From the IMG/VR virus record IMGVR_UViG_3300021960_000367, positions 1-28,797 of that record: a stretch of 28,797 bases of DNA; one strand, written 5' to 3'. The notes under the pieces were generated by a model. That model was not told the origin of the DNA, did not search any database, and was given only the letters and a program-made list of their open reading frames with translations. Position numbers and translations under genes: made by a program. Below are positions 5,810 through 20,441 of this stretch, in pieces; within the stretch, counting starts at the first letter, position 1; each line of letters opens with the position of its first letter. The DNA is from a virus.

Positions 5810-6094
5810 CTATGCTACTAGTTTATCCCAATGACCACTCACACCTATTGCAGAGTTGTCACATCCTTGTCCGTAAAACCAAAATTCCATATCTAAACCT
5901 TCGAATGATTCAGCATAGATGATACCTGTGAAAGGTTTTTTATCCAGTCTTTGACTATAACTGGTTGTTTCGTAAACCTCAGCTTCGATAAATGGAAAGT
6001 CATTGTTGACAACTTTGGTAATAGTACCTTCGTAAAACTTACCACTTTGTTTGTATCTGATGTCATCGTATTCGTTTAAGTATCCTATGTTCAT
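5810..6094 (-). CDS. Hypothetical 94-aa phage protein
   Basis: This is the first full gene behind the composite promoter at 6124-6153. AGGAGA lies 6 bases before the ATG. The protein is strand-rich (KFYEGTITKVVNNDFPFIEAEVYETT, MEFWFYGQGCDNSAIGVSGHW) and has no membrane segment. The start codon overlaps the stop of a possible 8-codon leader ORF (ATGA at 6091-6094). No family recognised. Confidence 0.7.
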   Translation of the reverse strand: MNIGYLNEYDDIRYKQSGKFYEGTITKVVNNDFPFIEAEVYETTSYSQRLDKKPFTGIIYAESFEGLDMEFWFYGQGCDNSAIGVSGHWDKLVA

Positions 6095-6123: not shown

Positions 6124-6153
6124 ATTATATAAAAAAATGGGGGGCATTGTCAA
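6124..6153 (-). promoter_or_regulatory. Sigma70-type promoter TTGACA-18-TATAAT (composite element 1)
   Basis: On the minus strand TTGACA occupies 6153-6148 and TATAAT occupies 6129-6124, with an 18-base spacer. The -35 box lies in the loop of a hairpin and the spacer contains seven T. The predicted start (7 nt after the -10) is the A at 6117, in CATGATGA. It drives the 94-aa gene at 5810-6094 and those after it. Confidence 0.85.
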
Positions 6154-6159
6154 CCCCCC
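6131..6159 (-). terminator. Intrinsic terminator overlapping promoter (composite element 1)
   Basis: The minus-strand transcript forms a 6-bp G:C stem (6159-6154 with 6144-6139) around a 9-nt loop, TTGACAATG, then A and seven U. It lies 8 bases after the stop of the 108-aa gene, where a terminator is expected. The same bases supply the -35 box and spacer of the next promoter. Confidence 0.75.
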
Positions 6160-6166
6160 AAGAAGA

Positions 6167-6493
6167 TTATATAAGATAATCAGGCCCATACTTTCTCATT
6201 CCAAATATCTCATATCCATCAAACAGGTTACCACGTCCTGCATTCAGAGTTGGAGTTGACCAACCTGCAGCCTTCAGAACAGTACCAGTTTCAAATTTAG
6301 AGTTGGTTTTATTAATGAAACCCCACACAGTAAGTTGATTACCAGTGTTGGTAATTACTTTGATGTACTTACGTGCAACCTCAAAATAGGTATGATACTC
6401 AGTAAGAGTAGGGTATTCTTTGATATGCAGTTCATTGATGTCATCACACAACTTTTGCACAAGAGGGATTAAGTTTTCTAGATTACGTTCCAT
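6167..6493 (-). CDS. Hypothetical 108-aa phage protein
   Basis: The ATG at 6491-6493 has AGGAGA six bases upstream and is the preferred start (MERNLENLIPLVQKL). An in-frame ATGATG at 6517 lies exactly at the predicted +1 of the 6524-6553 promoter and would add eight residues if leaderless translation occurs. The protein combines an N-terminal helical region (LIPLVQKLCDDINELHIKEYP) with strands (KYIKVITNTGNQLTVWGFIN) and a Gly-rich end. No family recognised. Confidence 0.7.
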   Translation of the reverse strand: MERNLENLIPLVQKLCDDINELHIKEYPTLTEYHTYFEVARKYIKVITNTGNQLTVWGFINKTNSKFETGTVLKAAGWSTPTLNAGRGNLFDGYEIFGMRKYGPDYLI

Positions 6494-6523
6494 TTCAGTC
6501 TCCTTATTTGTCATCATGTGTAT

Positions 6524-6553
6524 ATAATAACAAAAAATGAGGGGCTTTGTCAA
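6524..6553 (-). promoter_or_regulatory. Promoter TTGACA-18-TATTAT (composite element 2)
   Basis: TTGACA at 6553-6548 and TATTAT at 6529-6524 are separated by 18 bases, the same geometry as element 1. The predicted start is the A of ATGATGA at 6517. It drives the 108-aa gene. Confidence 0.78.
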
Positions 6554-6559
6554 CCCCTC
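6532..6559 (-). terminator. Intrinsic terminator overlapping promoter (composite element 2)
   Basis: The stem GAGGGG/CCCCTC (6559-6554 with 6544-6539) encloses the 9-nt loop TTGACAAAG and is followed by A and six U. It lies 25 bases after the CCA end of tRNA-Leu, so it would terminate the tRNA transcript. It shares its bases with the promoter for the next gene. Confidence 0.75.
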
Positions 6560-6584
6560 TAAGTCATTGAATTGTCTCGTAAAA

Positions 6585-6669
6585 TGGTGCCTGAGGCGAG
6601 ACTTGAACTCGCATGTCCGAAGACGAGGGATTTTAAGTCCCTTGTGTATACCAATTCCACCACTCAGGC
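6585..6669 (-). tRNA. tRNA-Leu (anticodon TAA)
   Basis: The 85-nt gene has acceptor stem GCCTGAG/CTCAGGC, discriminator A and an encoded CCA. The D arm has the GGAATTGG type, the anticodon loop is ACTTAAAAT, and the variable arm is long, as expected of class II leucine tRNA. It reads UUA. It starts one base after the CCA of tRNA-Pro, so the two are probably processed from one transcript. Confidence 0.93.
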
Positions 6670-7583: not shown

Positions 7584-7613
7584 ATAGTAACAAAAGTGGT
7601 GGGGCATTGTCTA
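7584..7613 (-). promoter_or_regulatory. Promoter TAGACA-18-TACTAT within a hairpin (composite element 3)
   Basis: TAGACA at 7613-7608 and TACTAT at 7589-7584 keep the 18-base spacing of elements 1 and 2. The -35 lies in the 9-nt loop of a GGGG/CCCC stem (7617-7614 with 7604-7601), 4 bases after the stop of the 82-aa gene at 7622. The U-run is only four bases and is displaced, so termination may be weak. This is a degenerate copy. Confidence 0.65.
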
Positions 7614-7621
7614 CCCCTTTT

Positions 7622-13842: not shown

Positions 13843-14175
13843 TTAATTCTTATGTAGTTTAACAAAATATTCTGCATCAACAAGTACTAAAGGTTTGGTA
13901 CGATTACGTTTGATAACTACAAGAGGTTCATACCCTTTGCAATTCTCAGTTGCCTGTTCGTATGCTTTCCAAACATTTACTGCTTCTTGATTCTTACATT
14001 CTACACTATAAGGGAAGATTTGTCTAGTCTGTTTTCCCATAATGATGTCCTCACCTTGAGAACCCATTGGACGTGACTCTATATCTTCTTCGTCTGCACC
14101 TAGTGTTTCAACTAAAAGACTCGCAAACCATTGTTGTAGTTTTCGTCCCTTAGCTTTCGCTGAACTTGTTTTCAT
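13843..14175 (-). CDS. Small PD-(D/E)XK nuclease (Holliday-junction-resolvase-like)
   Basis: The 110-residue protein has the minimal nuclease core: a first helix K-G-R-K-L-Q-Q-W-F-A-S-L-L, then G-S-Q-G-E-D-I (Asp43), a strand ending S-V-E-C-K-N (Glu59 and Lys61) and a helix after it. This GxD/ExK pattern is that of archaeal Hjc-type and VRR-type nucleases. Many T4-like phages use endonuclease VII instead, so this may be an alternative resolvase or nickase. The start overlaps the carbamoyltransferase C-terminal gene by 26 bases. Confidence 0.72.
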   Translation of the reverse strand: MKTSSAKAKGRKLQQWFASLLVETLGADEEDIESRPMGSQGEDIIMGKQTRQIFPYSVECKNQEAVNVWKAYEQATENCKGYEPLVVIKRNRTKPLVLVDAEYFVKLHKN

Positions 14176-14785
14176 AATCTTCAGGGTTGGGTGATTTTTG
14201 TCTTAGACATTCGTAAGGAATGTAGAGGTCACCTTCTTCTTCAGGAATGTAAAGGTGATTAATCATTGAACGGTTACAAGTGTCGATTGCATCGTAGACA
14301 CTCTCCACTAAACTTTCTCCACCCAAGTTAAACGAGGTGTTGAAAATAATAGGAGTCCCAGTTCTTTCTCCAAACTTTTTAATTAGATTGTAGTAGACTG
14401 GATTGCCTTCTTCGGTTACGGTTTGAATTCGACACGTACCATCTGCATGAACGAGAGAAGGAATCTCTTCGTATGCTTTGTCTTTAGCTTGAATTGCAAA
14501 AGACATGTAAGGTGAACCGTGTTCTTCTAATTGCAACATATCAAAGTATTCACTTGCATGTTCTTTAAGAACACTACATGCAAAAGGTCTGTAGTCTTCT
14601 CTCTGTTTGACCTCGTTGACAATTTGTTTTGCTTCAGGATGACGTGGGTCAAATATGATGGAACGATTTCCTAATGCACGTGGGCCCCATTCAGACTGAC
14701 CTTGATAGATTGCAACGATTTGTTGGTCATCAATGAGTTGGTCTAAGACCTCATCCATATCACGAATAATATTTGTTACAATCAT
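14150..14785 (-). CDS. Carbamoyltransferase C-terminal (YrdC-like) domain protein, NodU/TobZ family
   Basis: The motifs Y-Q-G-Q-S-E-W-G-P-R-A-L-G-N-R-S-I near residues 28-44, REDYRPFACSVL, and P-I-I-F-N-T-S-F-N-L-G-G-E-S-L-V near residues 143-158 are those of the second domain of O-carbamoyltransferases. In TobZ this domain makes carbamoyl-adenylate from carbamoyl phosphate and ATP. Here it is a separate 211-residue protein. It overlaps the first-domain gene by four bases (ATGA), so the two chains are made by coupled translation and probably form one enzyme. Confidence 0.88.
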   Translation of the reverse strand: MIVTNIIRDMDEVLDQLIDDQQIVAIYQGQSEWGPRALGNRSIIFDPRHPEAKQIVNEVKQREDYRPFACSVLKEHASEYFDMLQLEEHGSPYMSFAIQAKDKAYEEIPSLVHADGTCRIQTVTEEGNPVYYNLIKKFGERTGTPIIFNTSFNLGGESLVESVYDAIDTCNRSMINHLYIPEEEGDLYIPYECLRQKSPNPEDYENKFSES

Positions 14786-15975
14786 TCTTCTTCTCCATTT
14801 AATGTTTCAGTTACTTCCTCAACGATTTTATCCTCTAAGTGTCTTGCAAGATTTAATGTAACTCCAACTGCAGTTCCACCATCGTGTGCAATAGGGTCAA
14901 CGAAAAATTCTACATCAGGGAATCGTTGCATGTACTTATAATTGTTTGTACAGTTCAACGAGTAACCGCCTGAGAGGACGATTTTCTTAAGGTCAGGGTT
15001 TAGGTCTAATGCACGTTGAATAATTGCACAGGAGTGTTCTAAGGACTCCAGTTCACATTGTTGTGCTACTGTATGTCTAGAAAACACATTGTCTGTAATC
15101 GGTTGAGGTGCATAAGATGCCATACCCATAACCTTACCTGCTGCACGACCTTTTGTATCACATCCTAATGCATAGGACAGATTACTAAAGTTCATACCAC
15201 ATGAGGGTAGGGAAGTGAACACTGTTGGTACACCTTCAATCTCAACTTCTAAATCGTCAGGACAATCCAAACAATTTTCTAACATGTTAACAAACCCATC
15301 AGCTTTCCACTCACTTAATCCTCTATGATTAGAGAGTCTTTGCCATTGTAACTTGGGTTCTGTGTGTTTAGAATCGATACGATAGATGGATTCAATTTCT
15401 TGATAATTAGGATAACGTTCATAGTGTCTCATGGCACCACCACCGTCCCATGCGATTGCAATCACTGGTTCATCGTCTGCATACCAAGGTGAGAAATAAT
15501 ATCCACACTCTGCATGATACAAATGATGTTCAGTTTCAAAATGATATTTGTCCACTCCAAGTTGTTGTGCCATCTTGTCATGGATAGTGTTATCACCGTC
15601 TAGTAGTTCTTCCTTAATCGTAATACGAGGTTTTGCACCTTTAACATTGAACTCTTCCATGATAAGTTCAAGACGACTACGAGTTACTTGTTCGTGTGCA
15701 AAGGCATTTGCAATATCGATTTGTAGTCTACGGTCTTGTTTAACTTCTTCAGATAAACCTAAGAGAAGAACTCTACGGTCAAAGGATGCAAATGCAAGGT
15801 GTTCAGGTGTTTCAATACCACGTTGAACAATGGTTAAGAGTTCTGCTTCACTCTCTGAAGGTGACCAATACTTGTCACGTCTGTGTCTTTCTTCTTCCCA
15901 CACATTCGTAATCTCACCGTCTTTAAAGGTAACAATCGAAGTATCGTGTGAAGAATTAATCGCAAGAATTTCCAT
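14782..15975 (-). CDS. Carbamoyltransferase N-terminal (Kae1-like) domain protein, NodU/TobZ family
   Basis: The 397-residue protein has the ASKHA/Kae1-like layout: I-N-S-S-H-D-T-S-I-V at residues 6-15, the metal-site segment H-H-L-Y-H-A-E-C-G-Y-Y near 150-160, I-A-W-D-G-G-G near 173-179, V-L-S-G-G-Y-S-L-N-C near 335-344 and H-D-G-G-T-A-V-G near 366-373. In the family it passes the carbamoyl group to a hydroxyl acceptor. With the downstream 211-aa protein the total (608 aa) equals a normal single-chain enzyme. Acceptor unknown: candidates are a hydroxylated base, a glycan or a virion protein. Confidence 0.88.
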   Translation of the reverse strand: MEILAINSSHDTSIVTFKDGEITNVWEEERHRRDKYWSPSESEAELLTIVQRGIETPEHLAFASFDRRVLLLGLSEEVKQDRRLQIDIANAFAHEQVTRSRLELIMEEFNVKGAKPRITIKEELLDGDNTIHDKMAQQLGVDKYHFETEHHLYHAECGYYFSPWYADDEPVIAIAWDGGGAMRHYERYPNYQEIESIYRIDSKHTEPKLQWQRLSNHRGLSEWKADGFVNMLENCLDCPDDLEVEIEGVPTVFTSLPSCGMNFSNLSYALGCDTKGRAAGKVMGMASYAPQPITDNVFSRHTVAQQCELESLEHSCAIIQRALDLNPDLKKIVLSGGYSLNCTNNYKYMQRFPDVEFFVDPIAHDGGTAVGVTLNLARHLEDKIVEEVTETLNGEEE

Positions 15976-16847: not shown

Positions 16848-16993
16848 GTTACCTCCAACGTCTTTGCTAACCAACTAGGGTCAATCGCAAATGCAATTAT
16901 TAAAATAAACATGGTGACGAGTGTCACCATGTTTAGAAAGAACCATAGGATTGCTACGATATTCGTAAAACCTTTCCATGCAAAATCAAGCAC
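16835..16993 (-). CDS. 52-aa membrane protein, GTG start, containing a perfect hairpin
   Basis: AAGGAG lies eight bases before the GTG at 16991-16993, and the frame overlaps the stop of the DUF262-HNH gene. The product has a long hydrophobic region (NIVAILWFFLNMVTLV, TMFILIIAFAI) and ends WLAKTLEVTCQK. The codons for the middle of the helix form the 13-bp inverted repeat at 16906-16935. It is not in the usual six-frame ATG set, so it is easily missed. Function unknown. Confidence 0.6.
   Translation of the reverse strand: MLDFAWKGFTNIVAILWFFLNMVTLVTMFILIIAFAIDPSWLAKTLEVTCQK
16906..16935 (-). repeat. 13-bp perfect inverted repeat with 4-nt loop inside a coding region
   Basis: TAAACATGGTGAC (16906-16918) and its exact complement (16923-16935) are separated by GAGT. 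In the minus-strand mRNA this is a 13-bp stem with an ACTC loop followed by a U-rich run. It could attenuate transcription after the DUF262-HNH gene or block ribosomes. Confidence 0.8.
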
Positions 16994-18642: not shown

Positions 18643-18671
18643 ATTATACACAATAATGGGTGTAATGTCTA
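18643..18671 (-). promoter_or_regulatory. Promoter TAGACA-17-TATAAT for the DUF262-HNH gene
   Basis: TAGACA at 18671-18666 and a perfect TATAAT at 18648-18643 are separated by 17 bases. No hairpin surrounds the -35 here, and no co-directional gene ends just upstream. It lies back to back with the plus-strand 50-aa ORF at 18691. Confidence 0.78.
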
Positions 18672-19851: not shown

Positions 19852-19881
19852 AGTATATCAAAAAATGAGGGGCTTTGTCAA
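19852..19881 (-). promoter_or_regulatory. Promoter TTGACA-18-TATACT within a hairpin (composite element 4)
   Basis: TTGACA at 19881-19876 and TATACT at 19857-19852 have the usual 18-base spacing. The loop is the same 9-mer TTGACAAAG as in element 2, closed by a short GGG/CCC stem (19884-19882 with 19872-19870) and followed by six T. It lies 2-5 bases after the TAA at 19887 of the upstream gene. The stem is weak, so termination may be partial. Confidence 0.72.
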
Positions 19882-19886
19882 CCCTT

Positions 19887-20364: not shown

Positions 20365-20394
20365 ATTATATAAAAAAGTGAGGGGCATTGTCAA
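20365..20394 (-). promoter_or_regulatory. Promoter TTGACA-18-TATAAT
   Basis: Consensus -35 (20394-20389) and -10 (20370-20365) are separated by 18 bases. The sequence after the -10, GGCTACATGATGA, differs by one base from that after the element 1 promoter. The hairpin arms around the -35 do not pair well here (GAGTG against CCCCT), and no co-directional gene ends upstream. Confidence 0.85.
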
Positions 20395-20441
20395 CACTCA
20401 GAGACACACAGGTTTGACTCTGAATCTCTCTGAGATGCTGT

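Follow-up and report, generated by a model that had tools for sequence, protein, structure and literature searches.

A putative terminator-promoter cassette with the -35 box in the hairpin loop, a probable PeSL-type element of a T4-like marine phage

We analyzed a virus record over its full length of 28,797 bases (hereafter, the window) and found that a short element on its minus strand (cassette A; 6124 to 6160), placed between two co-directional genes, combines a predicted intrinsic terminator with a putative sigma70-type promoter. As the -35 box lies in the loop of the hairpin and the T-run serves as the promoter spacer, the whole cassette takes 37 bases. Cassette A is a genuine element, chance having been ruled out. 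We estimate at about 0.78 the probability that it serves a T4-like marine phage as a compact punctuation mark of the PeSL (promoter-early stem-loop) type, separating two transcription units that run in the same direction. The sequence, the statistics, the matching of the arms, and the association with gene context are demonstrated here; termination, initiation, early timing, and the evolutionary order of the parts are what we infer.

Cassette A and related promoters in the window

Read on the minus strand from 6169 to 6124, the window sequence is TAA-TCTTCTT-GGGGGG-TTGACAATG-CCCCCC-A-TTTTTTT-A-TATAAT. The 5' arm GGGGGG (6159-6154) and the 3' arm CCCCCC (6144-6139), extended by a T and an A, form the stem around the loop TTGACAATG, which contains a -35 box matching TTGACA at 6/6 positions (6148..6153). 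An A and a run of seven T (6137-6131) follow the 3' arm within the promoter spacer, and the -10 box TATAAT (6124..6129) stands 18 bases after the -35 box. The layout given in an earlier note on this DNA (6-bp GC stem, -35 box in a 9-nt loop, A plus seven T, 18-base spacer, and TATAAT) thus matches the window sequence. The fold amounts to -15.5 kcal/mol, and a d'Aubenton-Carafa-type score based on RNAfold energies (+52.5) predicts a terminator. The upstream gene (tentatively 6167..6553, minus strand) encodes a small protein with phage-family matches, which we searched with window positions 6167-6502. Its stop codon TAA (6169-6167) is separated from the G-run by 7 bases, one less than the 8 counted earlier. 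The downstream gene (5810..6094, minus strand) lies 29 bases after the -10 box and has relatives in 42 virus loci.

A strict search of the window, with minimum values of 5/6 for a -35 box located in the loop, 4 bp including 3 GC for the stem, 4 for the T-run, and 4/6 for the -10 box, returned 3 instances (-35 at 6153, 6553, and 19881; the copy at 7613 is weaker) versus 0.03-0.07 in order-1/order-3 Markov shuffles (maximum, 1). Similarly, the pattern GGGTTGACAN{2,3}CCCN{0,4}TTTTT occurred 3 times in the window versus 0.00 in shuffles. A liberal promoter list was set aside as too noisy. The shuffled windows, together with the scrambled-loop scans described below, ruled out a chance origin of the layout. 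We also rejected control of the downstream gene by an attenuator or riboswitch, because the hairpin is upstream of the predicted start site. Besides tRNA, no Rfam family was found in the window. Elsewhere on the minus strand, positions 16907-16934 carry a 12-bp hairpin, AAACATGGTGACACTCGTCACCATGTTT, followed by ATTTTAAT.

The same plan had been reported at three further places. Cassette B (6524..6560, minus strand), located ∼25-31 bases after tRNA-Leu(taa) (6585..6669, minus strand), does repeat it, with a GAGGGG/CCCCTC stem around TTGACAAAG, T6, a TATTAT -10 box, and a score of +16.7 that predicts a terminator; cassettes A and B are ∼80% alike over ∼70 bp. The other two, on the same strand, have part of the layout, but their stems are short. 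Copy C (7584..7617) has a 4-bp GGGG/CCCC stem, TAGACA, five non-T bases (ACCAC) ahead of TTTT, and a TACTAT -10 box (4/6). Copy D (19852..19884), immediately preceded by a TAA (19889-19887), has GGG/CCC arms, TTGACA, T6, and TATACT, and its stem measures 3 bp with a 9-nt loop or 4 bp with a 10-nt loop. Since the terminator scores of copies C (7613; -34.7) and D (19881; -33.3) are negative and under threshold, these two fit the plan only loosely. The contrast drawn in the earlier note with promoters whose hairpin is absent or mismatched was borne out. In promoter E (20365..20400, minus strand), a homologous copy that adjoins a divergent ORF and has no co-directional gene upstream, the 5' arm is broken (GAGTG versus CCCCTC) and the score is -18.4 (20394), and the promoters at 18643 and 23388 are without a hairpin. 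Seven promoters of the window lineage align as one family, and four of them have the leader ACATGATGA in common.

Carrier phage and distribution of the layout

Judged from its homologues of gp59 and RNase H, nearest to Kyanoviridae, this marine phage is T4-like. Marine Kyanoviridae, such as HTVC008M and cyanophages, are found among the best matches of the gp59-type helicase loader, and the T4-type RNase H is nearest to that of Methylophilales phage Melnitz (47%) and to that of S-PM2. A megablast of the whole window against phage records gave only tRNA matches among the matches listed. Five IMG/VR contigs (G001-G005) belong to the window lineage, several of them overlapping the window or one another and being near-identical, and they contribute two further cassettes, one with arms TAGGGG/CCCCTA, located ahead of a predicted tRNA, and one with arms AGGGG/CCCCT. 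In the window, a Nol-like carbamoyltransferase is apparently split into overlapping ORFs (14782-15975 and 14150-14785) that match different parts of phrog_1601.

The -35-in-loop layout is widespread and occurs in many unrelated phages. The earlier note had proposed a scan of phage genomes, and ours of IMG/VR with the pattern GGGGTTGACANNNCCCCN{0,4}TTTT, which describes the hairpin and T-run and leaves the -10 box free, matched at least 119 stretches. Composition-matched scrambled loops matched 1 and 2. A -10 box of at least 5/6 stood at 17 or 18 bases in 72 of 110 distinct IMG/VR cases, for a background of 1.1% per position. In bacterial and archaeal genomes (257 Gb), the pattern was found 38 times, 13 of them with a -10 box of at least 5/6 at 17-18 bases. 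Patescibacteria account for 6 of these 38 matches, several with a TATATT-type -10 box.

A GGC/GCC version of the pattern led to the Saphexavirus phages of Enterococcus. Phage VD13 contains five cassettes (-35 at 35355, 38980, 40766, 43736, and 46461), each 19-25 bases behind a co-directional stop codon and with differing arms, for example, GGGGC/GCCTC and GAGGCC/GGTCTC; a sixth hairpin is at 32817, and all six have positive terminator scores. VD13 also has NUMOD4-type genes at 35408 and 47424, the former directly behind a cassette. Further cassettes, each just behind a co-directional gene, were located through similarity to a cassette in Synechococcus phages S-SRM01, S-H38, and ACG-2014f, in Aerococcus phage AVP (Herelleviridae), in DSL-LC04, and in Gordonia phage Pupper; given this mode of discovery, they establish existence and not frequency. 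The Pupper cassette is rich in GC, its arms GGAGGGGG/CCCCCTCC enclosing TTGACAAAG, and it lacks a T-run ahead of TATAGT. The named carriers thus span Kyanoviridae, Saphexavirus, Herelleviridae, and Puppervirus. It is possible that Kyanoviridae, Saphexavirus, Herelleviridae, a Gordonia phage, and perhaps Patescibacteria arrived independently at the -35-in-loop terminator-promoter, a recurrent design that would insulate adjacent units in <50 bases and that may pass a terminated, sigma-retaining polymerase straight to the promoter on which it stopped; we advance this wider reading tentatively, with more doubt than confidence.

Possible selection on the hairpin, and turnover of neighboring genes

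In arm-swap and Fisher tests, which treat related sequences as independent, exchanging the 3' halves among 107 viral instances lowered the mean stem from 6.36 bp to 5.65 bp, with 0 of 2000 swaps reaching the observed value, and a co-directional stop codon was found at most 60 nt upstream of 53 of 68 hairpin promoters versus 67 of 161 hairpin-free ones (P = 6e-7; intergenic promoters of the fetched loci, with genes taken from mechanical ORF calls). In the same set, a divergent neighbor adjoined 3 of 68 hairpin promoters versus 37 of 161 hairpin-free promoters, which supports on a larger sample the contrast drawn in the earlier note.

We then sampled the promoter family of the lineage with the pattern TTGACANNGNNNCTCANTTTTTNNTATNNT, which does not require a hairpin. 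Of 86 placed members, only 20 have a stem that reaches 4 bp and 3 GC, and the other 66 keep a T-rich spacer, a feature that the search pattern itself demands. The arms matched in 17 of 73 members versus 9.4 expected (0 of 5000 shuffles). A co-directional stop codon was upstream of 17 of the 20 hairpin members and of 42 of the 66 hairpin-free members (P = 0.10). Orthologues of the 6524 promoter in loci L264-L276, located via the neighboring gene and independently of TTGACANNGNNNCTCANTTTTTNNTATNNT, in most cases retain TTGACA, a spacer of the CTCACTTTTT type, and the -10 box but have no 5' arm. As the T-run spacer is conserved in the family without the hairpin, these alignments indicate that the T-run is part of the promoter family and that the hairpin is optional, being added to the promoter mostly via the 5' arm. 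As to the co-variation of stem pairs, which the earlier note had named as a check, the arms outperform swapped arms, and in loci L262 and L263 the 5' arms of cassette B are altered with pairing kept, but most of L264-L276 have no 5' arm to pair.

The hairpin could be a by-product, a G-rich 5' arm complementing the conserved C/T-rich spacer by chance or for promoter strength, without any selection for termination. Most family members retain the CTCACTTTTT spacer but not the arm, and copies C and D are weak, as would be expected in that case. It is nevertheless an improbable account, as it leaves aside the matching of the arms above swapped arms, the association of the hairpin with an upstream co-directional stop codon, and the use of different arms by unrelated phages, VD13 included. 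The earlier argument that the hairpin is selected for termination is partly supported by the predicted strength of cassettes A and B, by arm matching, and by the link to co-directional stops, which extends to VD13, but it is weakened by the promoter's own family, whose members are often hairpin-free in the same context.

Very unlikely, though compatible with our preferred explanation, is that the main role of the cassette is that of a repeated recombination site that moves small genes by PeSL-style shuffling, the transcription signals supplying the homology. PeSLs have a published role in modular shuffling, according to the titles cited in PMC4503421, and the likeness of cassettes A and B would provide such homology. 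The genes flanking cassette A seldom stay together in relatives: in L264-L268 the upstream gene (∼90% identical) has a different gene behind it and no cassette, and L287 has the two flanking genes in the opposite order. L262 and L258, the latter read for the window lineage, are essentially identical across the upstream gene's end, cassette A, and the leader, but in L262 the counterpart of the gene at 5810-6094 is missing exactly behind the cassette, the sequence running into the following gene. Gene turnover at cassette A thus fits PeSL-style exchange, with L262 as the one clean case, which we also count in favor of the preferred explanation. However, a recombination site explains neither the -10 spacing nor the arm pairing, and in L262 the junction falls within the leader/ribosome-binding site and not in the hairpin. 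Hairpin promoters are also known in N4-like phages, where they serve a virion RNA polymerase. That the hairpin of cassette A acts in DNA in this manner, as an extruded or single-stranded promoter, is scarcely credible. A hairpin does stand at a promoter here, but the N4-like type has a small loop and no sigma70 boxes, and it would leave the perfect -35 and -10 boxes at 17-18 bases, the U-run, and the position after a stop codon unexplained. No virion-type RNA polymerase was found among the 30 proteins scanned in the window, the record being a fragment.

Proposed mechanism and comparison with known composite elements

Under the PeSL-type reading that we prefer, host RNA polymerase coming off the upstream gene would transcribe the GC hairpin and the U-run and stop at a point that, in DNA, belongs to the promoter spacer. 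The putative sigma70-type (early) promoter would use the -35 box in the hairpin loop and a spacer composed of the 3' arm and the T-run, with the new RNA predicted to start ∼7 bases after TATAAT. This RNA would lack the hairpin, so termination and initiation would not interfere in RNA. The promoter with its T-rich spacer was probably first; the hairpin would have come later, mainly behind a co-directional gene, where a spacer-complementary 5' arm was favored. After intrinsic termination, RNA polymerase can remain bound to the template and begin again at a promoter close by (PMC6978380), so, speculatively, a polymerase stopped on the cassette would already sit on the next promoter. The likeness is confined to restart nearby, since post-termination recycling is a general in vitro mechanism with no sequence design.

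Should the cassette prove to both terminate and initiate transcription, a single short sequence would act as a stop and a start signal, and this natural insulated promoter would be small enough to use in synthetic circuits. Recurrence in unrelated phages turns the presence of the hairpin when a co-directional unit is just upstream into a testable general rule, and the cassette offers a natural substrate for the question of whether a terminated polymerase restarts in place.

The earlier note knew of no description of this design. This was wrong in kind, as PeSLs are published as composite promoter-terminator cassettes of T4-like phages (PMC4503421, citing Arbiol et al. 2010, 10.1093/gbe/evq006, and Comeau et al. 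2014, 10.1093/gbe/evu129). As far as the titles and the citing text of the PeSL papers go, the exact layout, with the -35 box in the loop and the T-run as spacer, may be undescribed. Our literature searches for a -35 box inside a terminator loop and for Saphexavirus promoters or terminators found none. When T4, RB49, phi1, KVP40, and nt-1 were searched for TTGAC with CC and a T-run behind it, no -35-in-loop copy was convincing; classical T4-like phages thus do not generally share the exact layout.

Related arrangements do exist in these genomes. The promoter-hairpins of KVP40 (97800, 150219, and 34965) also have the -35 box inside the hairpin and the 3' arm in the spacer, but the box is mostly paired in the 5' arm and not in the loop. 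A repeated promoter class of RB49 (158969, 122881, 121736, 115033, 43031, and others) has a 17-base spacer that is a palindrome, e.g., GGGGATC..GATCCCC. These spacer palindromes (TTGACAGGGGATC..GATCCCCTATACT) likewise place an inverted repeat within the promoter, but their hairpin lies almost wholly between the -35 and -10 boxes and has no U-run. RB49 also has nine elements with a hairpin and T-run 12-17 bases (in one case, 24) upstream of a promoter; in these PeSLs that distance runs from the end of the terminator to the -35 box and includes the T-run, whereas the window element encloses the box in its loop.

In other respects the cassettes resemble PeSLs. By sequence and prediction, A and B each pack a terminator-type stem-loop together with a sigma70-like promoter into a single short stretch; the carrier is T4-like by its gp59 and RNase H homologues; and the copies recur between small genes of variable regions, with seven aligned promoters whose neighbors vary among relatives and with a possible link to gene gain and loss. 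The cassette is a variant layout of the published PeSL-type composite.
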